This document shows positions 28,978 to 50,215 of a stretch of DNA of 64,000 nucleotides, in pieces. Location: contig JAJYGC010000009.1 of the NCBI GenBank assembly GCA_021785195.1, positions 62,001 through 126,000 of the forward strand, written 5' to 3'. The position numbers and the translations under genes are program-made. The notes under the pieces are model-generated. The model searched no databases. It saw only the letters and a list, made by a program, of their open reading frames with translations, and was not told the origin of the DNA. This DNA is from Nitrospirota bacterium (GTDB lineage: Bacteria > Nitrospirota > Leptospirillia > Leptospirillales > Leptospirillaceae). Every line of letters begins with the position of its first letter. Position 1 is the stretch's first letter.

Positions 28978-29181
28978 TCAATCCCGATCCTGCCACTCCT
29001 CAAGCCATGCCATCTGAATCGCCTCCAGAATTTTCTCGTTGGAGGTCTTGGGATCCCCTTTGAAGCCTGGAAGTTCCAGAACATAACGATGCAGGTCGGT
29101 AAAGCGCACCGTCAGGGGATCGATCTCCGGATGCTTTTCCAGAAGCTGGTATCCGATTTCATGGGGCTCGTTCCAGTTCAC
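28978..29181 (-). CDS. iscX: IscX
   Basis: Small acidic iron-binding regulator of the ISC system that, in E. coli, competes with frataxin for IscS. The 67-residue product matches IscX across its length: WNEPHEIGYQLLEKHPEIDP, TVRFTDLHRYVLEL and SNEKILEAIQMAWLEEW. GTG at 29181 is chosen because GGGAG lies 9 bases upstream and it gives the family length; the longer frame adds an unmatched N-terminus. Confidence 0.92.
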   Translation of the reverse strand: MNWNEPHEIGYQLLEKHPEIDPLTVRFTDLHRYVLELPGFKGDPKTSNEKILEAIQMAWLEEWQDRD

Positions 29182-29231
29182 CTTTACAGTCTCCCTCTCT
29201 ATTCGGGGTGGATGGAATCTCACGTTTAGGA

Positions 29232-29543
29232 TTAGTGCTCGTGTCCACCTTTGCTGCAGGGGGGGATCCGGACCACCAAATCTCCCCGAACGATGGCCTG
29301 GCAGGCAAGCCTGGATTTTAGTGTCAATCCTTCTGCTTCATCCAGTTGATCTTCCTCGTCTTCGTCCATTTCCGAAAGCTGTCCGAACCCTTCCTCGACG
29401 ATGACATGACAGGTCGAGCAGGCACAGACCCCTCCACAGTTATGCTCGATCGGGATTCCCGACCGGAGCGCGGCCTGAAGGATGGATTCCCCCTCCTTGA
29501 CCTCGATGGTCTTTCCCGAATCCTGAAAATGAATCTTTGGCAT
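29232..29543 (-). CDS. fdx: [2Fe-2S] ferredoxin of the ISC system
   Basis: Adrenodoxin-type ferredoxin that supplies electrons for cluster assembly. The cysteine pattern HNCGGVCACSTCHV plus the later Cys in SRLACQAI gives the four ligands, and the acidic DEDEEDQLDEAEGLT segment is typical of ISC Fdx. It has 103 residues, 17 bases after hscA. Confidence 0.95.
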   Translation of the reverse strand: MPKIHFQDSGKTIEVKEGESILQAALRSGIPIEHNCGGVCACSTCHVIVEEGFGQLSEMDEDEEDQLDEAEGLTLKSRLACQAIVRGDLVVRIPPCSKGGHEH

Positions 29544-29560: not shown

Positions 29561-31372
29561 TTACTCGTCCACTTGTTTTCCACCCAGCGCTTCCTGCACG
29601 GAATGGTTCATCAGCCTTTCCGCAAGCGGTTGGGTTGCCTTGTCCAGCTGGGTTGTTTCATTCCGTACGAGACGTCCGTCCGTTCCCTTCATCGCCTCTT
29701 CAAGGCGGGTCATCTGCGTCTGGATCAGAATCCGTTCTTCTTTCGGCACGATCAGGTCATCCAACCGGTCCAGCGCCCTCCTTGTTGCGTTTAAAACGGT
29801 TTGCGCTTCGGTTTTGGCATCGATCAGGAGACGGGTTTCGAAGTCTTCCTTGGCATGGACGAAGGATTCCTTGATCAGTTCCCGGACATCTTCCCGGCCA
29901 AGTCCATAGGAGGGGTGCACGACGACACCCTGAGACTTTCCCGTCCGCTGATCAAGCGCCCGGACATCCAGAATTCCGTTGGCATCGATCATGAAAGTCA
30001 CTTCAATCCGGGCGGCCCCGGCTGTCATGGGATCAATCCCCGTCAGGGAGAAACGGGCCAGGCTCCGATTATCCTTGGAGAGTTCCCGTTCTCCCTGGAG
30101 AACATGGATGTCAACCCGGGTCTGTCCGTCCAGAAAGGTCGTGAACATTTCCTTGGCCTGTGTCGGAATCGTTGTGTTTCGGGGAATCAGTGTCGACATG
30201 ACCCCTCCCATTGTTTCGATGCCGAGGGAAAGGGGGGTGACGTCGAGAAGGAGAAGGTCCTTCCGCTGTCCTGAAAGGATATGGCCCTGGACAGCGGCCC
30301 CTTCGGCCACGACAAGATCGGGGTCAACCGTGTCGTAAAGTGTTTTCCCGAAGAACTCCTGGACAGCCTCCTTGATTCGGGGAAGACGGGTCGCCCCCCC
30401 CACCAGAATGACTCCGTCGATTGAGTCGGGCTCGATCCCGGCATCATCCAGCGCCTTCCGGACGGGAACCATTGTCCGTTGGACCAGAGGCTCGACAAGG
30501 TCATTGAGTTTTGCTCGGGTCAAGGTCGTCCTGAAATGGAGCGCCGGAATGGCAATCTCCACCGAATGGGTCGAGGAAAGGGCGATTTTCGCTTTTTCGG
30601 CCTCTTTGCGAAGCAGATCACGAATTTCAGGCTTGTCCTGCGATCCGTTGACGGCCTTGAGGTCTTCTAGCCAGGAGGCCACTATCGCCGCATCAAAGTC
30701 GTCTCCGCCAAGGTGGGTGTCTCCGCTGGTCGCCCTGACTTCAAAAATTCCCTTTCGGATATCAAGCAGGCTGAAGTCGAATGTGCCCCCCCCAAGATCG
30801 TAGACGGCAAAAAGGCCGTCCTTTCCCGAGCCGAACCCATAAGCAAGAGCCGCTGCGGTGGGTTCGTTCACGATTCTCAGGACATTGAGCCCCGCCATTT
30901 CTCCGGCGTCTTTCGTGGCCTGCCTCTGGGCGTCATTGAAATAGGCCGGAACGGTGATGACCGCATCCCGGACTGGCTCGTTCAGATAAAATTCCGCCCG
31001 TTTTCTCAAATCCGAAAGGACCAGTGCCCCGATTTCGGGAGGGGAGAGATGACGATTCCGAAATCGGTCCGGAACCATCGGAAGTCCCCTGATGTCCTCA
31101 ACCGGGTAGGAAAGAAATGGCAGTTCCCCCGAGACCTCTTCGTATCCACGGCCCATGAGCCGCTTGGCGGAATAGACGACAACAGTTTCCGGGTCGTTGA
31201 GCCTTGCCCGCGCAGGATATCCCACCTGGACTCCGGATTGTGCGAATGCCACGACGGATGGAAGGAGGGAGCGGCCTTCTCCGTCGGGGATGACTTCGAC
31301 CCGTTCTCCGCGCAAAACGGCTATAAGGGAGTTGGTGGTACCCAGATCGATGCCGACAACAGTACGGGACAC
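29561..31372 (-). CDS. hscA: HscA, Hsp70-type chaperone for IscU
   Basis: Specialised Hsp70 that binds the LPPVK motif of IscU and helps release the cluster. ATPase signatures [31 protein letters not shown] and [16 protein letters not shown] are intact, and the substrate-binding domain follows [14 protein letters not shown]. It has 603 residues, near the usual 615. It starts with GTG, 10 bases after hscB. Confidence 0.95.
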
Positions 31373-31382
31373 AATTTCTCCT

Positions 31383-32054
31383 TCAGACCATCTGTCCGCG
31401 GGCAGAAGACGACCGCGTCTTCAAATCCCGTTCAATAGACTTCAAATATTTTCGGTATTCCAGGTTTCGGCTGAGGCTGGCGCGGCAGGAGAGAAGGGAA
31501 GAGTGATCCCTTCCCCCGGTCATTTGGTCAAGTTCAGCCATTCCTTCAAGAATCTTCGACTCGACATCCTTGATCCTGAGGGAGAGTGTCCGAAATGCGC
31601 CAATGCTATCCTGTGACTCCGCCTGCTCCTCCAATGACTCCTTGAACTCCATGATTTCCATGAGAAGCTCCGGCGGTAACGCCAGTTTCTGGCCCTGGGG
31701 AGAATGATGGGGGCCCGTCAGGTCAAGGTAATAGAGCGCCCGTTCAAAAGGGTCCTTGAGCGTTTTGAATGCCTGATTGAGCAGGGCGGCATTGTTCAGG
31801 CTGATGTCCTGTTCCGTTCCGTTTTCCAGCCGATGAAAGTCCGGGTGAAAAAGACGGCTTTTGAGATGGAACCGTTCCGTCAGTTCGTTCATGTCGACAA
31901 TCAGTTGAACGGGCAATCCCAGGATTGAAAAGAAATCCGCGTCATGCCCGATCGGCTGAATCTTGATGCACGAAGAACAGAGATCCGATTCTGACAGGCT
32001 CTCCCTGCAGTTCCAGCAAAGAGACGGATCGACCCTCTCGAACGAATGGGGCAC
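31383..32054 (-). CDS. hscB: HscB J-domain co-chaperone with N-terminal zinc ribbon
   Basis: J-protein that brings IscU to HscA and stimulates ATP hydrolysis. The HPD motif is in [14 protein letters not shown], and the C-terminal IscU-binding helices follow ([19 protein letters not shown]). An N-terminal CxxC...CxxC pair ([18 protein letters not shown]) forms a zinc ribbon like that of human HSCB, which E. coli HscB lacks. It has 223 residues. Confidence 0.93.
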
Positions 32055-32143: not shown

Positions 32144-32473
32144 TTAGACGGCGAACGACGTACCGCAACCGCAACTATGGGTGGCATTGGGGTTCTGGAA
32201 TTTGAATCCTCCTCCCATGATCCCGCCTCCCTGGAAGTCGAGAACGGACCCATCGAGGTAAACCATGGATTTCGGGTCAATCAGGATCCTGAGGCCCGAA
32301 GGACCTTCCTGGACTTCGTCAAACTCTCCGGGCTCATCTTCAAACTTGATCAGGTAAGAGAGACCCGAACACCCTCCGCCTTCAATCCCGAGCCGCAGGT
32401 ACTTCCCTTCCTTTTTCTGAATCTTCGACATCCGAAGAACTTCCGAGACGGCTGGCTCTGTCACATTGATCAT
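32144..32473 (-). CDS. iscA: IscA-type Fe-S assembly protein
   Basis: A-type carrier that accepts and passes on Fe-S clusters. The three conserved cysteines are in GGGCSGLSY and HSCGCGTSF. It has 109 residues. It sits between iscU and hscB in the classical order. An ErpA identity is possible on sequence alone. Confidence 0.93.
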   Translation of the reverse strand: MINVTEPAVSEVLRMSKIQKKEGKYLRLGIEGGGCSGLSYLIKFEDEPGEFDEVQEGPSGLRILIDPKSMVYLDGSVLDFQGGGIMGGGFKFQNPNATHSCGCGTSFAV

Positions 32474-32483
32474 GATTCCCTCC

Positions 32484-32885
32484 TCAGGCTTGAACGTTTT
32501 CTTTCAGGTCCTTTTTGGCCTTGTAGTCATTGATGGCGCCCTTGATGGCATCTTCTGCCAGGACGGAGCAATGTATCTTGACCGGGGGCAGATTCAGTTC
32601 CTGAACGATATCCGTGTTCTTGATCTGGAGTGCTTCCTCAATCGTTTTTCCTTTGACCCATTCAGTGGCCAGGGAACTTGATGCTATGGCACTTCCACAT
32701 CCGAATGTCTTGAACTTTGCTTCTTCGATGACACCGGAGTCATTGATCTTCAGCTGAAGCTTCATTACATCTCCGCATTCCGGTGCACCGACAATGCCCG
32801 TGCCGACATTTTCTTCCGTTTTCTCAAAGGACCCCATGTTTCTCGGGTTGTTATAGTGGTCGATAACCTTATCGCTATATGCCAT
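32484..32885 (-). CDS. iscU: IscU scaffold protein
   Basis: Scaffold on which [2Fe-2S] clusters are built. The three ligand cysteines (GAPECGDVMKL, TFGCGSAIASSS, KIHCSVLAEDA) and the HscA-binding LPPVK motif are intact. ATG at 32885 is preceded by GGGAGG. It has 133 residues. Since this scaffold looks fully functional, the degenerate state of the IscS upstream is all the more notable. Confidence 0.95.
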   Translation of the reverse strand: MAYSDKVIDHYNNPRNMGSFEKTEENVGTGIVGAPECGDVMKLQLKINDSGVIEEAKFKTFGCGSAIASSSLATEWVKGKTIEEALQIKNTDIVQELNLPPVKIHCSVLAEDAIKGAINDYKAKKDLKENVQA

Positions 32886-32957
32886 TTCTAGCCTCCCATT
32901 CAATTTCAGTGCAGTGTCGGAGATCCGACCGGAACATTGCGCGTAATTCCTGCGGTC

Positions 32958-34172
32958 TCAGTGAGAGTTCCACTGGACGGTTTTCAGGTCAATTCCCTCT
33001 TTTGCCATTTCGTAAAGAGGGGACATATCGCGGAGCCGGCTCACGGCCTCCTTGACCCGTCGTACGGAGTATGCAATTTCTTCTTCGGTGTTGAACCGGC
33101 CCACTGAAAACCGGATGGAGGAATGTGCGAGGTCGGTTCCAACTCCCAGCGCCCGGAGAACATAAGATGGTTCCAGCGTTGAAGAGGTACAGGCCGAACC
33201 CGAAGAGAGTGCAATCTCCTTGAGCCCCATCAGAAGGGCTTCCCCCTCGACAAAGGCAAAAGAAAGATTGGACACGGCGGGGGAACGATGTTCCACGTCT
33301 CCGTTGATGCTCACATAGTCCAGCTCCTCCAAGATCCCGTTTTCGAGCTTGTCTCTCAGGTTCTGGAGGAATCGAATCTCCCCGTCCCAATTTTCCCTGA
33401 GGATCCGGCAGGCCATCCCCATCCCGACGATGCCGGGGGTGTTGAGGGTTCCAGACCTGAGTCCCCGTTCGTGTCCACCGCCGTCGATTTGCGCAGTCAG
33501 CCGAACCCGGGGGTTCTTCCGTCGGACATAAAGGACTCCGACCCCTTTCGGGCCATAGATGAGGTGGGCGTTCATGGAAAGGAGGTCAATGTTCATCCTG
33601 TTGACATCCAGAGGCATGACCCCAGCGGCGTAACTTGCATTGACGTGGAACAGGACGCCTTTTTCCCGGGTGATTTTCCCGATCTCCTCAAGGGGCTGGA
33701 TGGTCCCAATCTCGTGATTGACCGCCATCGTGCAGACCAGAATGGTTTCGGGGCGGATGGCCTCCCTGACTTTTTCAGGGTCAACCCTTCCCTTGCTGTC
33801 CACCGGAATGATGGTGACGGTAAAGCCATGCCGCTCCAGTGAATGGAGGGGATCCAGCAGGGAGCGGATATCCGTTTCAACGGCGATCAGGTGGTTCCCT
33901 TTTTCCCGGTACATCTCGGCAATTCCCTTGATTGCCAGATTGTCGGATTCGGTCATGCCGGAAGTAAAGACGATCTCTTTCGGATCGGCCTTGATCAGGG
34001 CTGCTACGTCGGAACGGGCCTGGTCCACCCCTTCCTCCGCCTTCCATCCATAGGAATGGTTGCGGGAAGAGGCGTTTCCGTAGTCCTCGGTGAAGTAGGG
34101 AATCATTGCGTCGAGGACGCGTGGATCCAGCCTAGTGGTAGCGTGGTTGTCCAAATAAATTGATCGATCCAT
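32958..34172 (-). CDS. IscS-like protein lacking the PLP lysine and other PLP contacts
   Basis: Homologous over its full 404 residues to the cysteine desulfurase IscS, with the same start (IYLDNHATT), the Cys328 loop (LSSGSACTSSTLEPSYVL) and the C-terminal IscU-binding segment. The catalytic site has changed. The lysine of the SGHK motif is Leu204 (NAHLIYGPKG), the PLP-ring aspartate is Asn178 and the phenolic-oxygen glutamine is Tyr181 (HVNASYAAG). The histidine that stacks on PLP is Ile102 (ETDIRSLLD) and Asn155 is His153. The Leu codon CTC (33561-33563) differs from a Lys codon at two or three bases. It probably cannot bind PLP covalently or desulfurate cysteine; it may be a scaffold or sulfur relay. 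Confidence 0.9.
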   Translation of the reverse strand: MDRSIYLDNHATTRLDPRVLDAMIPYFTEDYGNASSRNHSYGWKAEEGVDQARSDVAALIKADPKEIVFTSGMTESDNLAIKGIAEMYREKGNHLIAVETDIRSLLDPLHSLERHGFTVTIIPVDSKGRVDPEKVREAIRPETILVCTMAVNHEIGTIQPLEEIGKITREKGVLFHVNASYAAGVMPLDVNRMNIDLLSMNAHLIYGPKGVGVLYVRRKNPRVRLTAQIDGGGHERGLRSGTLNTPGIVGMGMACRILRENWDGEIRFLQNLRDKLENGILEELDYVSINGDVEHRSPAVSNLSFAFVEGEALLMGLKEIALSSGSACTSSTLEPSYVLRALGVGTDLAHSSIRFSVGRFNTEEEIAYSVRRVKEAVSRLRDMSPLYEMAKEGIDLKTVQWNSH

Positions 34173-34602
34173 TCAGGACTCCTCCCGTTGCGGGAACGGC
34201 TTGGGTCAACTCCTCAAGGGTCATGTCCTCGAGGAGCCACATGATTTTCCCCTGAATTTTTTCCAGGGGCGAGCGAATATCACAATTATCAATCTGCTGG
34301 CAAATTTTATCCTGTCCTTCAGAACAGCTGAGAATTCCGACGGGGCCATCGATCGCATCAATGACATTCAGGATTGAAATTTCCCGACCGGGCTTCTTGA
34401 GCGAATAGCCACCCTTTGGGGCATGGTGGCTCTGAAGGATCCCCTTCTTTGAAAGCTTCTGTAATACCTTTGCCAAGATTTCGGTGGGGATCTGGTACGC
34501 TTCCGAAATCTCCCGGATGTTCACAATCTGCTCCGGCTCCTGCTGCGACAGAAAGCTAAGTGCCAAAAGGGCATAGTCCACTTTTTTCGTCAACTTGAGC
34601 AA
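34132..34602 (-). CDS. iscR: IscR-like Rrf2-family regulator
   Basis: Fe-S-sensing repressor of the isc operon. The winged helix (LKLTKKVDYALLALSFLSQ) and three cysteines spaced C-x7-C-x5-C (SCSEGQDKICQQIDNC) are present. TTG at 34602 is chosen: GGAG lies 7 bases upstream and it gives the family's short N-terminus, whereas the ATG 75 bases earlier reads through the promoter. The 3' end overlaps the start of the IscS-like gene by 41 bases, so the two are tightly linked. Confidence 0.88.
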   Translation of the reverse strand: MLKLTKKVDYALLALSFLSQQEPEQIVNIREISEAYQIPTEILAKVLQKLSKKGILQSHHAPKGGYSLKKPGREISILNVIDAIDGPVGILSCSEGQDKICQQIDNCDIRSPLEKIQGKIMWLLEDMTLEELTQAVPATGGVLNGSINLFGQPRYH

Positions 34603-34626
34603 TGGAGTCTCCGACTCATTTAATCG

Positions 34627-34643
34627 CAGACCGAAATGGTCTG
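34627..34643. promoter_or_regulatory. Palindrome at the isc promoter, candidate operator
   Basis: CAGACC-N5-GGTCTG, a perfect 6-bp dyad, lies just downstream of the -10 box where transcription should start. It is well placed for autoregulation by IscR. It does not match a known IscR site that I can recall. Confidence 0.5.
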
Positions 34644-34648
34644 TGATC

Positions 34649-34677
34649 AATATAGCATTCTCGCGCTCCATCGTCAA
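34649..34677 (-). promoter_or_regulatory. sigma70-type promoter of the isc operon
   Basis: On the minus strand, -35 TTGACG (34672-34677) and -10 TATATT (34649-34654) are separated by exactly 17 bases. The iscR TTG start is about 47 bases downstream of the -10. Confidence 0.72.
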
Positions 34678-38556: not shown

Positions 38557-40290
38557 ATGAGTCAGACTCATTTTATCGATACGGATATTGCCATCATTGG
38601 GGGAGGAACCGCTGGTTGCTATGCGGCCCTGACCGCCAGGCGCCAGGCACCTGAGCTGGATGTTCTGATTCTGGAGAAGGCCCATATCGACCGCTCTGGG
38701 TGTCTGGCGGGGGGAATGAATGCCATCAATGCCTATATCAATCCCGGCGAGACGGTGGATTCGTTTGTGGATTATGTAAGGTTTGATGCCATGGGGATTC
38801 TCCGGGAAGATCTCGTCCGGACCCAGGCGGCCTTGTTTGCCGAGGTGGTCCGAGACCTGGAACAGATGGGTTTGCCGATCGTAAAGGATCAAACGGGAAG
38901 GTATGCCCCCCGCGGACGCTGGAACATCAAGATTCATGGAGAGTCTCTCAAGCCCCTTCTGGCGGGAAAGGTCCGGGAATCGGGAGCTTCTGTGCTGAAC
39001 CGGGTGGTCGTGACCAATCTCCTTCTCGAGGAGGGGAGGGTGGTTGGTGTCGTGGGATTCGGCCTTCGGGACGGGAGTTTCTATGTCGTCCGGTCCAAGA
39101 AGACGATTGTGGCGACCGGTGGGGCTTCCGGCCTCTATCGACCGAACAATGAGGGTGCCGCCCGCCATAAGATGTGGTACTCCCCCTTCAATACCGGTGC
39201 CGGGTACGCCATCGGGATACGTGCAGGGGCGGAAATGACCAGTTTCGAGCATCGGTTCATCGCCCTCAGGACCAAGGAAACCATTGCCCCTACCGGAACG
39301 CTTGCGCTGGGATTTGGCGCGCCCCAGGTAAATGCCTTGGGAGAGGAATTCATGAAGCTCAGATGGTCCCACATGGGGGGAGAAGGCGCACCGACACCGA
39401 TCCGGCTTTATGCCCCGATGAAAGAGATCGCTGAGGGAAGGGGGCCCTGTTACATGGATACCCGGCACCTTTCTTCCGAAAAGGTCCGCTCCCTCAAGGA
39501 AGCCTATCTCGATATGTATCCGAATACAGTTCTGTACTGGGGGGCAAACGGAATCGATCCGGGACGGGAACCCATCGAGATCTGCGGAACCGAGCCCTAC
39601 CTCGTGGGGGGGCACTGCCAGGCGGGGTATTGGGTCGATGTTGATCGTCGGACCTCAATCCCGAACCTGCTGGCCGCCGGTGATGTGGCAGGGGGCGCTC
39701 CGTACAAGTTTGTGTCCGGTTGCTTTGCGGAGGGAAAAATTGCGGCGGAGACCTCAGTTCGGGAAATCCTGGCCGAGCAGGCGGGCCTTGTGAAAATTCC
39801 GGATGACGTCGTGGCGAGGGAGCGGAGCCGGACGCTTGACCCGCTTGCCCATCCGGGCCCGGTTTCCCCGGAAGAAATGGAGGAACGCCTTCAGAAAGTC
39901 ATGGACGAGTACGCCGGCGGGATCCGGACGCAATATGCGATGAATGAGTCCAGCCTTCTGGTTGCCGAACGAAAGGTGAAGGTCATGCGGTCGGAGGCCT
40001 CCCTTCTCGGAGCGACTGATCTTCACGGGTTGATGAACCTCCATGAGGTGGTGGATCGGATCGACGTGGCCCGGGTTTTGATTTCCCACCTTCTGGCGCG
40101 ACGGGAGACGCGGTGGCCCGGGTTTCAGACCCGGCTGGATTTTCCCCAGACCCGTGAGGAGTGGCGCCTGTTTGTCAATTCTGTCAGTGAACCGGCCACC
40201 GGGCAGATCCGGATCGTGTTGAGACCGTTGGATTCCTTTACTGAAACGGCAGAGCTGCCGGAGGAGGTGGGTGTTGGGCATTCTCATTGA
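38557..40290 (+). CDS. aprA: Adenylylsulfate reductase alpha subunit (AprA-type)
   Basis: FAD subunit that interconverts APS and sulfite plus AMP. The FAD-binding start DIAIIGGGTAGCYAAL, the AprA blocks GGMNAINAYINPGETVDSFVDYVRFD and RWNIKIHGESLKPLL, and the GGHCQAGYWVDVD and CFAEGKIAAE segments place it with AprA rather than SdhA/FrdA. It has 577 residues, shorter than the roughly 620-660 of sulfate-reducer AprA. GGAGGGGG precedes the ATG. No dsr or qmo genes are nearby, so use in sulfate assimilation or sulfite handling is plausible; direction is inferred. Confidence 0.88.
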   Translation: MSQTHFIDTDIAIIGGGTAGCYAALTARRQAPELDVLILEKAHIDRSGCLAGGMNAINAYINPGETVDSFVDYVRFDAMGILREDLVRTQAALFAEVVRDLEQMGLPIVKDQTGRYAPRGRWNIKIHGESLKPLLAGKVRESGASVLNRVVVTNLLLEEGRVVGVVGFGLRDGSFYVVRSKKTIVATGGASGLYRPNNEGAARHKMWYSPFNTGAGYAIGIRAGAEMTSFEHRFIALRTKETIAPTGTLALGFGAPQVNALGEEFMKLRWSHMGGEGAPTPIRLYAPMKEIAEGRGPCYMDTRHLSSEKVRSLKEAYLDMYPNTVLYWGANGIDPGREPIEICGTEPYLVGGHCQAGYWVDVDRRTSIPNLLAAGDVAGGAPYKFVSGCFAEGKIAAETSVREILAEQAGLVKIPDDVVARERSRTLDPLAHPGPVSPEEMEERLQKVMDEYAGGIRTQYAMNESSLLVAERKVKVMRSEASLLGATDLHGLMNLHEVVDRIDVARVLISHLLARRETRWPGFQTRLDFPQTREEWRLFVNSVSEPATGQIRIVLRPLDSFTETAELPEEVGVGHSH

Positions 40291-40615
40291 CGAAAATAGC
40301 TGTCACGGTTGTACGCGGCTGCCGGAGGCCCGATGTGTCACGGCCTGTCCCGGTGACCTGATCGGGATTCGCTCCGGCGATGGGAAAGCATTCATGCGGG
40401 TGCAGCCAGATTGCTGGGATTGTTATGCCTGCGTGAAAATGTGCCCTGTATCGGCCATTGAAGTCATTCTTCCCTACCCACTGGCCGGGCGGGAAGCGCA
40501 TCTGATGCCGAAAATGAGGCGCGAGTCGATTCGCTGGACCCTGGTCACCCAGGACGGCAATGTTGAGCAGTTTGATGCCCCTACACGGGTTCCTGAAGAG
40601 CTTTTGGCAGATTGA
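40274..40615 (+). CDS. aprB: Adenylylsulfate reductase beta subunit (AprB-type)
   Basis: Electron-transfer subunit with two [4Fe-4S] clusters. The first site is CHGCTRLPEARCVTACPGD with the AprB-type insertion, and the second is CWDCYACVKMCPVSAI. The C-terminal tail (ESIRWTLVTQDGNVEQF) is the AprB arm that wraps AprA. TTG at 40274 is preferred since GGAGGTG ends 5 bases before it; the GTG at 40271 is too close. It overlaps the end of aprA by 17 bases. Confidence 0.9.
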   Translation: MGILIDENSCHGCTRLPEARCVTACPGDLIGIRSGDGKAFMRVQPDCWDCYACVKMCPVSAIEVILPYPLAGREAHLMPKMRRESIRWTLVTQDGNVEQFDAPTRVPEELLAD

Positions 40616-40669
40616 CCGGTCAGGGATTGACCCGATCACCGGTGAACATCATCATCCAAGGAGATTTGA

Positions 40670-41851
40670 ATGACGCTTGCACAGCCGCATGGTGGTACGC
40701 TTGTTTCCAATGTCATTGCCGACAATGAACGGGAGTCTTTCCTGAAGGAACTTTCCCGGGTTCCATTCCTGACGCTCGATGCCCGGGAGCTTTCCGATCT
40801 GGTCCTCCTCTCCCAGGGAGCACTCTCTCCCCTGAGCGGATTCATGGATCGGCAGTCCTATCTTTCCGTCATCGAACGGATGAGGTTGCCGAACGGGTTG
40901 CTGTTTCCCCTGCCGGTCGTTCTTTCCATTGGGGAAACCCTTTACAGGAAGCTTGGCAAAGGGGACCTTGTGGCGCTCAAGACACCGGCCGGGCAGATTG
41001 TGGGTGGATTGTGGGTGAGTGATCTGTTTGAACGACAGATCGAAAAGGAGGCGGCGGAAGTCTACCGGACCACAGACCGCGCTCACCCGGGAGTCCATTA
41101 TCTTTCCGAGGTTTCGCCTTTTGCGGTGGGGGGGACGGTCCGGGCGCTCGAATCTTTCGAAACGGATCCGTTCCGCGCCCAGCAACTCACTCCCGATGAA
41201 TCCAGGAGACTGTTTGTCCAGAAAGGGTGGAACACGGTGGTGGGATTTCAGACCAGGAATCCAATCCACCGGGCACACGAATATATCCAGAAGTGTGCAC
41301 TGGAGCTGGTGGATGGTCTTTTCATCCATCCTCTGGTCGGGGAAACAAAAGAGGACGATGTTCCGGCTTCGGTGCGGATGGACTGCTACAAGGCCCTTCT
41401 CTCACGGTATTATCCGAAAGAACGGGTCATTCTGGGTGTGTTTCCGGGTTCGATGAGGTATGCAGGCCCCCGGGAAGCCCTGTTCCATGCATTGATCCGG
41501 AAAAACTACGGCTGTACCCATTTCATTGTGGGGCGTGACCATGCGGGCGTGGGATCATATTATGGCCCGTTTGAAGCGCACGATCTCCTGAAACGGTTTG
41601 ATTTTGATGATCTTGGAATTGTTCCGATCTTTTTCGATACGGCCTATTATTGCCGGCTCTGCGGAAGCATGGCTTCCCACAAGACCTGCGGTCACAGCGA
41701 AGATTCCCGGATCCTCCTTTCGGGGACAAAAGTCAGGGCCCTGCTCCGGGAAGGGATTGCCCCCCCTCCGGAAATGACCCGCCCGGAAGTGGCGGAAATC
41801 CTGATCGGCCATTACTCAAGCCGGGTTGATTCACCGGAACGGGTTGCTTGA
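40670..41851 (+). CDS. sat: Sulfate adenylyltransferase (ATP sulfurylase), Sat type
   Basis: Makes APS from sulfate and ATP, the substrate of AprAB. The active-site motifs FQTRNPIHRAHEYIQ and VGRDHAGVGSYYG, the CRLCGSMASHKTCGH metal site and SGTKVRALLREG are all intact. It has 393 residues, the size of homo-oligomeric Sat enzymes. It is 54 bases after aprB in the same operon and there is no CysND here. Confidence 0.95.
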   Translation: MTLAQPHGGTLVSNVIADNERESFLKELSRVPFLTLDARELSDLVLLSQGALSPLSGFMDRQSYLSVIERMRLPNGLLFPLPVVLSIGETLYRKLGKGDLVALKTPAGQIVGGLWVSDLFERQIEKEAAEVYRTTDRAHPGVHYLSEVSPFAVGGTVRALESFETDPFRAQQLTPDESRRLFVQKGWNTVVGFQTRNPIHRAHEYIQKCALELVDGLFIHPLVGETKEDDVPASVRMDCYKALLSRYYPKERVILGVFPGSMRYAGPREALFHALIRKNYGCTHFIVGRDHAGVGSYYGPFEAHDLLKRFDFDDLGIVPIFFDTAYYCRLCGSMASHKTCGHSEDSRILLSGTKVRALLREGIAPPPEMTRPEVAEILIGHYSSRVDSPERVA

Positions 41852-47134: not shown

Positions 47135-48403
47135 GTGGCGGAGGAAAATGCCGATGACGGGTCCTCGCTCCAGTCAGAGTGGCTGAAGGTGGCGGAAATC
47201 TGCAATGGTTGCCGCCGGTGTTTTCATCTGTGTCCGTCCTTCGACACGCTTTTCGATCTGCTGGATGTCCCCGAGGTCGATGGGGATCCTGGAAAACTCC
47301 CCTCCGATGCATTGGAACGGACTCAGGATGGGTGCAATCTCTGTAAACTCTGCTATAACCATTGTCCATACTGTCCTCCCCATTCCTATGCGCTTGATTT
47401 TCCGGGGCTCATGATCCGATCCCGAATCCGTTTTGTCCGGAAGAGGGGGAGGGAGGTTGTAGACCGGTTTTTGTCCCGGACAGACCGGACGGGGAGGTTG
47501 GGGAGCCGATTTTCCAGGGTGATGAACGCCGCCCTTCGATCCCCCTTTCTCAGAAAGGGGGGGCAGCGGCTGTTCGGCATCCATGCCGATGCCCCGATCC
47601 TTCCTTTTGCCCGGGAGACCTTCTGGGATCGCCACAGGAAGGGGGCGCGCACTGAAATCCCGGGGAATGTGAGGGCGGGGGGGCGAAAGGTGGCCCTGTT
47701 CGTCACCTGCCTCGGCAATTACCAATTGCCGGAGATTCCGGAAAGTGTGGCGCTCATTCTGGAACACCATGGCATACCCGTCGTGGTTCCGGGGTCGGTT
47801 TGTTGCGGCATGCCATATCTGGACGTGGGAGATCCGGAAGGGTTTCGCCGGCAGGCGGCCCGGGTCCTCTCCCTTTTTCTGCCCCTGGTCAGGGAAGGGT
47901 ATCAGGTGGTGGCACCGGTGCCGACCTGTTCGCTCACCCTCCGCAAGGAGTTCCTGCGTTATGGTGATCCGGGGACGGAGAGGGCGTTTGGGGAGCTGTC
48001 CGGCGCGACATGGGATTTTTTCCATTATCTTCAAAAGCTCAGGCAAGCGGGTGAGCTGAAGACGGACTTCAAGGGCACTGTCGGGCGGGTCTCCTACCAC
48101 GTACCGTGCCATCTCAGGGATCAGAATGTCGGAACCCCCGTTCGGGAAATCCTGGGACTGATTCCGGGCTCGGAAGTGTTTCCGGTCGAATTGTGTTCGG
48201 GGCATGGCGGGTCCTGGGGAATGCGGGAGACCCATTTCCCGGATGCCCGGGCCAAGGCCATCAGGACTGTAGGTGCCATGGAAGCGGCTTCGGGAAGCGT
48301 CTGGTCTTCGGACTGCCCCTTGGCGGCCCAGGCGCTCGGGGCACAAGGACACCGTTCGGTGGAGCATCCTGCGATTCTCCTTAGGAAAGCTTATGGACTT
48401 TAG
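47135..48403 (+). CDS. Heterodisulfide-reductase/GlpC-like Fe-S protein
   Basis: It has 422 residues. Two N-terminal [4Fe-4S] sites (CNGCRRCFHLCPSF, CNLCKLCYNHCPYCPP) are followed by two CCG-type domains. The first reads VCCGMPYLDVGD; the second is degenerate (ELCSGHGGSWGM). This matches the Hdr/GlpC-type protein usually encoded with rubrerythrin and DUF3501. GTG at 47135 has AAGGAGGAGG upstream. No rubrerythrin gene is seen here. It likely handles electrons between redox partners; substrate unknown. Confidence 0.85.
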   Translation: MAEENADDGSSLQSEWLKVAEICNGCRRCFHLCPSFDTLFDLLDVPEVDGDPGKLPSDALERTQDGCNLCKLCYNHCPYCPPHSYALDFPGLMIRSRIRFVRKRGREVVDRFLSRTDRTGRLGSRFSRVMNAALRSPFLRKGGQRLFGIHADAPILPFARETFWDRHRKGARTEIPGNVRAGGRKVALFVTCLGNYQLPEIPESVALILEHHGIPVVVPGSVCCGMPYLDVGDPEGFRRQAARVLSLFLPLVREGYQVVAPVPTCSLTLRKEFLRYGDPGTERAFGELSGATWDFFHYLQKLRQAGELKTDFKGTVGRVSYHVPCHLRDQNVGTPVREILGLIPGSEVFPVELCSGHGGSWGMRETHFPDARAKAIRTVGAMEAASGSVWSSDCPLAAQALGAQGHRSVEHPAILLRKAYGL

Positions 48404-48453: not shown

Positions 48454-49050
48454 ATGAAACCCATCACGACCGCAGATCTTCTTCCAAACGCAGAGTATGA
48501 AAAGAGGCGGGCGGAGTTCCGGACAAACATGATTGCCTTCAAAAAAAACCGGGGCCTGAATCTGGGCCCCCTGATCCGCATCGTCTTCGAAAATCGGGAA
48601 ACGGTCCTGTTCCAGATCCAGGAGATGTTGTTTGTCGAAAATGCGACCTCTCCGGAAAAGAGGGAAGAGGAAATCCGTGTTTACAGTGACATGCTTCCCT
48701 CCCGAACGGCGCTCAAGGCGACGCTCATGATCGAGATTGTGGAAGAGTCCCGGATCCGTGAAACCCTTGACAGCCTGAAGGGGCTGGACAGGGGGCCCTA
48801 CATTCATCTGGCGTTTGGTGGAGAGAGGGTGACCGCATTGTTCGAGGCGGATCGATCCACCGACGAAAAACTCAGCTCCGTCCATTATGTGACGTTCCCC
48901 TTTTCCGAAGGGCAACGAAAACTGTTTTGCGAACGGCCGGTGACCGAAAAAGTGGTTCTGTTGTCCGACCATCCCCGTTACTCCGCGATGGTGACTCTTC
49001 CACCAGAGATGGTCCAGAGCCTCCGGAGAGATCTTGCCGATGAATCCTGA
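48454..49050 (+). CDS. DUF3501 protein
   Basis: It has 198 residues starting MKPITTADLLPNAEYEKRR. The blocks IRIVFENRETVLFQIQEML and LPSRTALKATLMIEI are characteristic of DUF3501, whose genes usually follow a Hdr/GlpC-like Fe-S gene, as here (51 bases downstream). Function is unknown. Its end overlaps the start of the NifS-like gene by 11 bases. Confidence 0.85.
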   Translation: MKPITTADLLPNAEYEKRRAEFRTNMIAFKKNRGLNLGPLIRIVFENRETVLFQIQEMLFVENATSPEKREEEIRVYSDMLPSRTALKATLMIEIVEESRIRETLDSLKGLDRGPYIHLAFGGERVTALFEADRSTDEKLSSVHYVTFPFSEGQRKLFCERPVTEKVVLLSDHPRYSAMVTLPPEMVQSLRRDLADES

Positions 49051-50215
49051 AAGGGCTTTTCTCGATTGCGACAACCAGATGCCCCTCCGTCCGGGCGTGC
49101 GGGAATCCATCCTTGAGGGGCTTGATTCCTATGCCAATCCCATGAGTCGTTCCCGGAGGGGAAATCTGTCCAGAACCCGGCTTGAACATGCCCGGTCGGT
49201 CCTGGCCCGGGCACTCGGGGCCCATCCTTCGGAAGTGGTTTTTGTCTCCAGCGGCTCTGAAGCCAATACCTGGGCGATCGAGCGGGTTGTCATGGAAGGG
49301 GGGCGCCCTCCCGTGGCGATCCTGGTTTCCCCCCTCGAACATGTTTCAGTGCTGACGGCGGCGGGTTCCCGAAGCCGTCAGGAAGGCATTCCGCTGATCC
49401 GTCTGCCGATCGATCCAAAGGGTGTGGTCGATCTGGAGCAACTTGACCAGATGGTCGCGAAGACTCCCGGCCTGGTTTCTGTCCAATGGGCCAATCCCGA
49501 GATGGGACTGGTCCAGCCCATTTCCGAAATCGGAAACATCGTCCGCAAGCATGGGGGCTTGTTGCACGTGGATTTTATTGCGGCGGAAACAATGGTTCCG
49601 GTGCGCTTTTTCGATCTCCCGATCGATCTCCTGACTGTTTCTTCGGCGCGATGGGGAGGGCCTCCCGGTGTGGCCGCCCTTGTGATCCGCAGGGGGGTCC
49701 GAATCAAGGCCATGATGGGGGGGGGGTCCCAGGAAGAGGGGCGCAGGGGAGGGTCTCAGCCTGTTTTCCTGGCAGAATCCTGGGCCTGTGCCATCATGCA
49801 CTGGGAATCCCACCGGACGGAGGAAAGACATCGTCTGGAACTCCTGTCGGCCCGGGTGGAGGGGTTCGTGTCCTGTCTTGAGGGGGTGAATGTTGTCGGG
49901 CAAGGGTCCGAGCGGATTCCGGGCCTCGTCAGCCTGCTGGCCAAAGGGATCGATGGACAGGCGGCCTTGTCCAGGCTGGATCGGGCCGGAGTGGAGGTGG
50001 GGACCGGTTCGTCGTGTTCCGCGGATTCCCTCAAGGTTTCCCATGTCCTGTCGGAACTGGGCATTCCGGTCGTCCTCGCCCAGGGATCCGTTGTGCTCTC
50101 GATGGGATGGGGGACACACGCTTCCGAAATCGATCTGTTCTGCCAGCATTTCCCGGAGGTTCTGGCAGATCTGCGGGAATTGGCTCCGGCCCTGAAACTG
50201 TCTGGCAGAGTCTAA
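49040..50215 (+). CDS. NifS/IscS-like class V aminotransferase fold protein lacking the PLP lysine
   Basis: It has 391 residues and is clearly related to NifS/IscS over most of its length (SSGSEANTWAIERVV, SPLEHVSVLTAAG, VSVQWANPEMGLVQPISEIG). Where the family has SGHK, it reads SARW: the PLP lysine is Trp205 (TGG at 49652-49654) and the preceding His is Arg204. The PLP aspartate is kept (HVDF, Asp178), the glutamine is Ala181 and Asn155 is Pro153. The catalytic cysteine equivalent (GTGSSCSADSLKVSHVL, Cys326) remains. ATG at 49040 has GGAGAG 10 bases upstream. It probably cannot form an internal aldimine. Confidence 0.85.
   Translation: MNPERAFLDCDNQMPLRPGVRESILEGLDSYANPMSRSRRGNLSRTRLEHARSVLARALGAHPSEVVFVSSGSEANTWAIERVVMEGGRPPVAILVSPLEHVSVLTAAGSRSRQEGIPLIRLPIDPKGVVDLEQLDQMVAKTPGLVSVQWANPEMGLVQPISEIGNIVRKHGGLLHVDFIAAETMVPVRFFDLPIDLLTVSSARWGGPPGVAALVIRRGVRIKAMMGGGSQEEGRRGGSQPVFLAESWACAIMHWESHRTEERHRLELLSARVEGFVSCLEGVNVVGQGSERIPGLVSLLAKGIDGQAALSRLDRAGVEVGTGSSCSADSLKVSHVLSELGIPVVLAQGSVVLSMGWGTHASEIDLFCQHFPEVLADLRELAPALKLSGRV

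Follow-up and report, generated by a model that had tools for sequence, protein, structure and literature searches.

A lysine-less IscS fixed in the isc operon of Leptospirillum and its relatives

Cysteine desulfurase is the accepted point at which sulfur enters the ISC system. The IscS of A. fulgidus reportedly shows no desulfurase activity and contributes a cysteine ligand to a [2Fe-2S] cluster on IscU (PMC7585200, where Marinoni 2012, Yamanaka 2013, and Pagnier 2014 are cited for the lysine-less IscS). According to the same source, IscS1 of M. acetivorans also lacks the catalytic lysine and has been suggested to act like the A. fulgidus protein; it is one of three IscS proteins in that archaeon, the other two of which carry the PLP residues. 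In Methanococcales without a cysteine desulfurase, Fe-S clusters are nevertheless assembled, and the use of sulfide has been proposed (PMC10067955, PMC12647591).

Here we analyzed an IscS ortholog encoded in a 64,000-nt stretch of DNA (the window) from a genome of the class that comprises Leptospirillum and its kin, five genera in all (the class). Like A. fulgidus IscS (4eb5, 4eb7, 4hvk; D199K mutant 4r5f), the window IscS has the IscS fold and the loop cysteine but no PLP lysine. A PDB alignment places Asp at the lysine site of 4eb5 and Lys at that of the 4r5f mutant, whereas the class has Leu. At the H104 and D180 sites, A. fulgidus IscS still has His and Asp, both of which are gone in Leptospirillum. 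The A. fulgidus protein comes from an anaerobic archaeon and is 39-40% identical to the window IscS. A. fulgidus is not known to have a complete iscRSUA-hscBA-fdx-iscX operon. In contrast to M. acetivorans IscS1, the lysine-less copy of the class sits in a complete isc operon and occurs class-wide, and in contrast to the Methanococcales, where the desulfurase gene is absent, the gene is kept under selection. Canonical bacterial IscS and human NFS1 are 52-54% identical to the window IscS over nearly the whole length and have the same fold; canonical IscS shares with the class the E. coli operon order, the Cys328 loop, and the docking residues, but the PLP lysine and pocket residues of these enzymes are replaced in every class copy found.

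With E. coli K-12 IscS as the reference for site numbering, the replacements reported in a first-pass annotation of this DNA (Leu204, Asn178, Tyr181, Ile102, His153, and Asn201) were all borne out by direct codon reading and alignment to the E. coli protein, as were the gene coordinates given there (Table 1). The K206 site is Leu in 21/21 class rows, compared to Lys in 69/69 canonical rows (68 sisters plus E. coli). Asn201 (AAC) occupies the S203 site, which is a weak marker because sister IscS proteins vary there (Ser in 65%). The same annotation held that nearly all PLP contacts had been lost, a wording that proved too strong because the phosphate cup survives: six sites have changed, but the window IscS retains Thr74 (T76), His203 (H205), Thr242 (T243), and Arg354, and these four are kept in 20/20 class rows counted. 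We take T76, H205, and T243 to be the phosphate-cup residues and Arg354 to be the residue that holds the substrate carboxylate. With K206, D180, H104, and Q183 gone, the protein would be left with no internal aldimine, no electron sink, and no stacking on the PLP ring. A relocated PLP lysine was ruled out, as no invariant lysine new to the class was found in the aligned class IscS rows.

Measured against the PLP enzymes of the IscS family, every class row lacks the PLP lysine and the ring-holding Asp, His, and Gln but has the loop cysteine; the window IscS has the fold and family membership, and the isc-operon setting with IscU was seen in the window and in six class loci. The window IscS matches PF00266 (7.6e-76) and passes the NCBIfam IscS model NF010611 (597.9 against a cut-off of 548), but misses the TIGR02006 IscS equivalog (573.7 against 643.2). 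NF010611 labels it a cysteine desulfurase, above cut-off, despite the absent lysine, which is likely a misannotation. Judged by its residues, the class IscS is very likely a pseudo-desulfurase.

Table 1. Features in the window and, for the DsrE-tusA pairs, in other loci of the class.
Feature	Position	Strand	Basis
IscX	28978..29223	-	homology to sister isc loci
Fdx	29232..29543	-	homology to sister isc loci
HscA	29561..31372	-	homology to sister isc loci
HscB	31383..32054	-	homology to sister isc loci
IscA	32144..32473	-	three cysteines kept
IscU scaffold	32484..32903	-	three cluster cysteines kept
IscS ortholog without PLP lysine, 404 aa	32958..34172	-	NF010611, E. coli alignment
TGT, Cys328, loop cysteine, retained	33189..33191	-	codon read; alignment
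CTC, Leu204 at PLP-lysine site (E. coli K206)	33561..33563	-	codon read directly
TAC, Tyr181 (E. coli Q183)	33630..33632	-	Tyr 21/21 class rows
AAT, Asn178 (E. coli D180)	33639..33641	-	Asn 21/21 class rows
CAC, His153 (E. coli N155)	33714..33716	-	His 20/21, Asn 1/21 class rows
ATC, Ile102 (E. coli H104)	33867..33869	-	Ile 15/21, Gly 6/21 class rows
IscR	34132..34677	-	homology to sister isc loci and E. coli iscR
Adenylyl-sulfate reductase subunit alpha (AprA)	38557..40290	+	NF005331 749.4 vs cut-off 557; TIGR02061 aprA not reached
AprB-like ferredoxin-type protein	40271..40615	+	TIGR02060 72.8, below cut-off 135.65
ATP sulfurylase	40670..41851	+	PF01747 7e-94
Second class-V paralog, 393 aa, Arg at PLP-lysine site, loop Cys kept	49034..50215	+	PF00266 3.9e-38
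DsrE-tusA pair, L182	3951-4636		
DsrE-tusA pair, L183	3474-4138		
DsrE-tusA pair, L184	5656-6318		
DsrE-tusA pair, L185	5181-5827		
DsrE-tusA pair, L206	16128-16808		

Lys at this site in relatives would have pointed to an error or a strain-specific change, so we asked how far the replacements extend. Searches of genomes by family and by class returned the identical 21 genomes. An IscS ortholog with 73-100% identity was present in 20 of them and was not found in G009 (66% complete). All 21 copies in these 20 genomes (G012 has two, one partial) carry Leu at the lysine site. Across the 395 Nitrospirota genomes searched, the Leu-form motif occurred in 20, all of the one family to which the window genome belongs. 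As an outgroup we used the best 80 of at least 538 related stretches. Class members accounted for 12 of these, and the 68 sisters came from Nitrospirota (among them Nitrospira and Manganitrophus), Acidobacteriota, and a small number of further phyla. H104, N155, D180, Q183, and K206 occur together in 68/68 sisters of this best-80 set. In a 112-row tree, made by a quick method and showing long paralog branches, the IscS rows of the class (20) formed a single clade (SH-aLRT 100) that groups with canonical bacterial IscS, A. fulgidus not being included. A single loss of the lysine on the class stem is the simplest reading. The losses in the class and in A. fulgidus would be independent, given identities of 52-54% to E. 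coli and human proteins compared to 39-40% to the archaeal one.

Class IscS is under strong purifying selection, with a constraint about equal to that on its lysine-bearing relatives. By the Nei-Gojobori method, for pairs with 0.02<pS<0.62, the class had a median dN/dS of 0.058 (19 sequences; 47 of 171 pairs), compared to 0.041 for the sisters (14 sequences; 24 of 91 pairs). Of 189 alignment columns at least 95% conserved in the sisters, 17 differed in 90% or more of the class, and these included six of the ten conserved columns on a list of PLP and substrate contacts (hypergeometric P 3.6e-5, a value that is descriptive because the list was made after the finding). The window genome is estimated to be 64% complete and most class genomes used are metagenome assemblies, which raises the question of sequencing error, a strain-specific lesion, or gene decay. 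The same residues recur across 20 genomes and five genera in stop-free open frames with dN/dS near 0.06, and artifact or decay of this kind is almost certainly not the explanation.

The rest of the operon looks intact. The genes iscR-iscS-iscU-iscA-hscB-hscA-fdx-iscX run in one direction and in E. coli order in the window and in the six class loci examined. Among 14 sister loci, fdx was in the same place in four, upstream on the other strand in six, and absent from the stretch in four; iscR was not seen in one and hscB not seen in one. Each of the three cluster-cysteine sites of IscU is Cys in 13/13 class rows, and a single IscU column is class-specific among these rows, so that an altered IscU was rejected. 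With purifying selection, a complete operon, and an unchanged IscU, the earlier view that the isc system is not decaying held up.

So did the view that the Cys328 loop and the IscU-binding region are conserved. Cys328 is present in all class IscS rows. Using interface residues taken from PMC2854127, we found that class proteins kept, on average, 97% of the sister majority residues in the Cys loop, 88% in the IscU-contact helix 309-316, 95% at the TusA-docking sites, and 100% in the phosphate cup plus Arg354. The TusA-docking residues W45, E49, R55, R220, and R237 are kept in 20/20 class rows, and D52 is D or E. The residue group tested for ThiI, CyaY, and IscX binding was less well kept (58% in the class compared to 80% within the sisters). 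An AlphaFold2 model of the window IscS built from 26 rows had a mean pLDDT of 81.1 and a pTM of 0.84, with residues 324-348, including the Cys loop, below pLDDT 50. Its top 18 structure matches were all chains of human NFS1 (TM 0.90-0.92) or of E. coli IscS, the latter by itself or paired with TusA or IscU (TM 0.87-0.88). The window IscS looks folded and docked like IscS. Since the kept phosphate cup and Arg354 exceed what a bare scaffold needs, the pocket may still bind a ligand, and this pattern of residues speaks against a purely passive scaffold.

Published work on the genus has credited IscS with activity. Perez et al. 2022 (PMC9628965) reported cysteine-dependent thiocyanate formation with cyanide in extracts of Leptospirillum sp. 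CF-1, at 124-151% of control under stress, credited it to IscS, and stated that no other desulfurase gene was found. The eight isc genes of CF-1 are reported there to be co-transcribed, with iscS mRNA up 31-fold under ferric stress (1 h) and 40-fold with no ferrous iron. As reported, the rise in activity is far below the rise in mRNA, and the assay was made on crude extract. The main text of PMC9628965 contains neither "lysine" nor "PLP", and lysine loss is mentioned in no title or abstract opening of the literature found on the subject. From the class-wide result, the CF-1 IscS would be expected to carry Leu as well. Something in the CF-1 extract, on the published account, does release sulfur from cysteine.

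One way to accommodate this activity is for the window IscS to remain a desulfurase by unusual chemistry, with PLP held in the phosphate cup without the lysine bond, or with a different cofactor. The invariance of the phosphate cup and Arg354 in all 20 class rows counted would fit such chemistry, as would the desulfurase-type activity in CF-1 extracts (PMC9628965). However, K206, D180, H104, and Q183 have been lost together, and A. fulgidus IscS, with fewer losses, is reported to be inactive (PMC7585200). The CF-1 assay combined crude extract with cyanide, and rhodanese-type enzymes could contribute to it. We consider residual catalysis by this protein improbable.

In a different reading, another PLP cysteine desulfurase would mobilize the sulfur, with the isc-operon copy as its docking adaptor. 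The first-pass annotation called for a search for a normal SufS or IscS. We searched the 21 genomes with PF00266, which matched in 14/14 control genomes, and with two protein queries, and then read the active-site residues. In place of a SufS, CsdA, or other class-V desulfurase throughout, the PF00266 search gave patchy lysine-bearing copies, NifS-type in 11/21 genomes (plus a fragment in G020) and DndA-like in 6/21. The two NifS-type copies whose neighbors were read sit in nif clusters (nifH and nifD in G001, nifB in G003). No lysine-bearing class-V desulfurase was found in 8/21 genomes (G000, G002, G006, G009, G014, G015, G018, and G019), of which G002 is estimated to be 99%, G018 95%, and G006 89% complete, the rest being 64-78% complete. 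The L-cysteine desulfidase family PF03313, that of the CyuA present in the Methanococcales, was found in 0/21 class genomes, while 9/14 control genomes were positive. The NifS-type and DndA-like copies argue for a separate desulfurase in the genomes that have them, but given their patchiness, the nif neighbors of the two NifS-type copies read, and the near-complete genomes in which none was found, such an arrangement is very improbable for the class.

Other class-V proteins in these genomes were also read. The second class-V paralog of the window has 19 copies spread over 18 genomes, and the lysine site could be read in 18 of these copies; its H104 and D180 residues are retained, and the lysine site is Arg, Ala, Ser, Met, or Val. 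With Lys in 0/18 readable copies, it was ruled out as a lysine donor. In the window it adjoins a DUF3501 gene (48454-49050) and a CCG/Fer4 protein (47135-48403), and by eye, similar neighbors accompany it in G002 (L067) and, in part, in G003 and G006. A class-V protein in G002, G006, and G018 (PF00266 about 85-105 bits) looks like an aminotransferase; its best model was BhcA, whose cut-off was not reached since each protein was scanned as a fragment. One weak PF00266 hit in G002 was GcvPB. Two DndA-like copies are split over two frames, G003:C1:1271651-1272761 (L079) in an otherwise single-contig genome, and G016:C141:3140-4233 (L202), one of three in that genome.

Because the PLP lysine is lost and IscS is otherwise kept, sulfur probably enters cluster assembly elsewhere. 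We surveyed the genomes for candidate sources. The sulfite/nitrite-reductase family, taken whole with its two functions undivided, was present in 14/21 genomes, including 4/4 near-complete ones, and was not found in 7/21 (64-81% complete). In the window, the AprA, AprB-like, and ATP sulfurylase genes (38557-41851, +) lie about 4 kb from iscR. TusA-family proteins were found in 20/21 class genomes and rhodaneses in 18/21, the latter not being found in G000, G004, and G019 (64%, 80%, and 70% complete). A DsrE-like gene lies directly beside tusA in the five genomes read (G000, G002, G003, G006, and G018), and the DsrE-TusA pair is a candidate sulfur relay; a DsrE neighbor was absent at seven other TusA-type loci looked at.

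The tRNA-thiolating enzyme MnmA was also examined. Its CC and CxxC motifs were present in 10/10 loci examined (L179 5366-6454 and nine others), with the third cysteine found by a strict motif in 7/10; the family match was weak in G006 (1.3e-4) and partial in G014. The class MnmA resembles the Fe-S-dependent MnmA class of PMC11784392, a type that, according to that source, also occurs outside sulfide-economy organisms. Its presence therefore permits a sulfide-based reading, and we rejected it as proof of a sulfide economy. Collectively, the sulfite reductase, Apr, TusA, rhodanese, and MnmA data permit both sulfide and persulfide routes and prove neither.

In a persulfide route, rhodanese, the DsrE-TusA pair, or both would load Cys328 with sulfane sulfur, and the pseudo-IscS would pass it to IscU, reversing the usual flow from IscS to TusA. 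In favor of such a relay are the five TusA-docking residues kept in all 20 class rows counted, the frequency of TusA and rhodanese, and, in the five genomes read, the DsrE-TusA pair. However, a large part of this docking surface is also conserved in the sisters, where it serves its ordinary function, and inspection by eye of the class TusA proteins read showed neither of the two arginines through which E. coli TusA binds IscS. The rhodanese, TusA, and DsrE genes all lie outside the isc operon, DsrE is missing beside the seven other TusA-type loci, and three genomes yielded no rhodanese. A relay of this kind is a tentative proposal that we regard as rather doubtful.

The interpretation offered in the first-pass annotation, a scaffold or a sulfur relay, was partly supported overall and, by sequence, is the leading reading. 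To that account the present analysis adds the A. fulgidus precedent, the second lysine-less paralog of the window, and the near-complete relatives that yielded no lysine-bearing class-V desulfurase. In its sulfide form, IscS would act as a scaffold and cysteine ligand for IscU with sulfide as the sulfur source, a combination to which we give about an even chance. The class IscS would be a fixed, functional pseudo-enzyme, most likely without PLP cysteine desulfuration, that persists as a dimeric platform bound by IscU. Cys328 would reach into the IscU site and ligate the cluster transiently, in the manner suggested for A. fulgidus IscS, which also lacks the lysine. The sulfur would most likely be inorganic sulfide from sulfate or sulfite reduction rather than from cysteine on the pseudo-IscS, and later steps would be carried out by HscA/HscB, IscA, and Fdx as usual.

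Several observations argue for this sulfide-fed scaffold. The pocket has been rebuilt while the Cys loop, the IscU helix, the TusA-docking sites, and the phosphate cup were kept; the sulfite/nitrite-reductase family is widespread; G002, G018, and G006 yielded no lysine-bearing class-V desulfurase; and A. fulgidus provides a precedent (PMC7585200). Against it stand the CF-1 activity credited to IscS (PMC9628965), the retention of more of the pocket than a bare scaffold needs, and the NifS-type or DndA-like copies, which could supply sulfur where they occur. Free sulfide is also less acceptable in an aerobe than in A. fulgidus, and the reductase family, counted across both its sulfite and nitrite functions, was not found in a third of the genomes (7/21, 64-81% complete).

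Because of the A. fulgidus precedent, lysine-less IscS is already known as a kind. What is new here is that the case is bacterial, extends across a whole class with aerobes among its members, and lies in a complete isc operon; the pocket is also more thoroughly rebuilt, and in some near-complete genomes no lysine-bearing class-V desulfurase was found. Homology surveys would likely miss the case because a curated family model names the class IscS a cysteine desulfurase, and our results cast doubt on that annotation and on one published activity assignment (PMC9628965).

In this acid-loving, iron-oxidizing class, which includes the bioleaching genus Leptospirillum, the operon is complete and its entry enzyme lacks the catalytic residues, a loss old enough to be fixed across five genera. 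Some aerobes of the class may depend on a complete isc operon, with no PLP cysteine desulfurase, for all of their Fe-S clusters and thiolated tRNAs. The pseudo-IscS would be supplied by sulfide or by a rhodanese/DsrE-TusA relay, and an Fe-S-type (CC-CxxC) MnmA would thiolate the tRNAs; the evidence for and against this wider proposal is, in our judgment, evenly balanced. The class would offer a natural setting in which what IscS does as a docking partner and ligand is separated from what it does as a catalyst, and in which the question of sulfide versus persulfide becomes directly testable.
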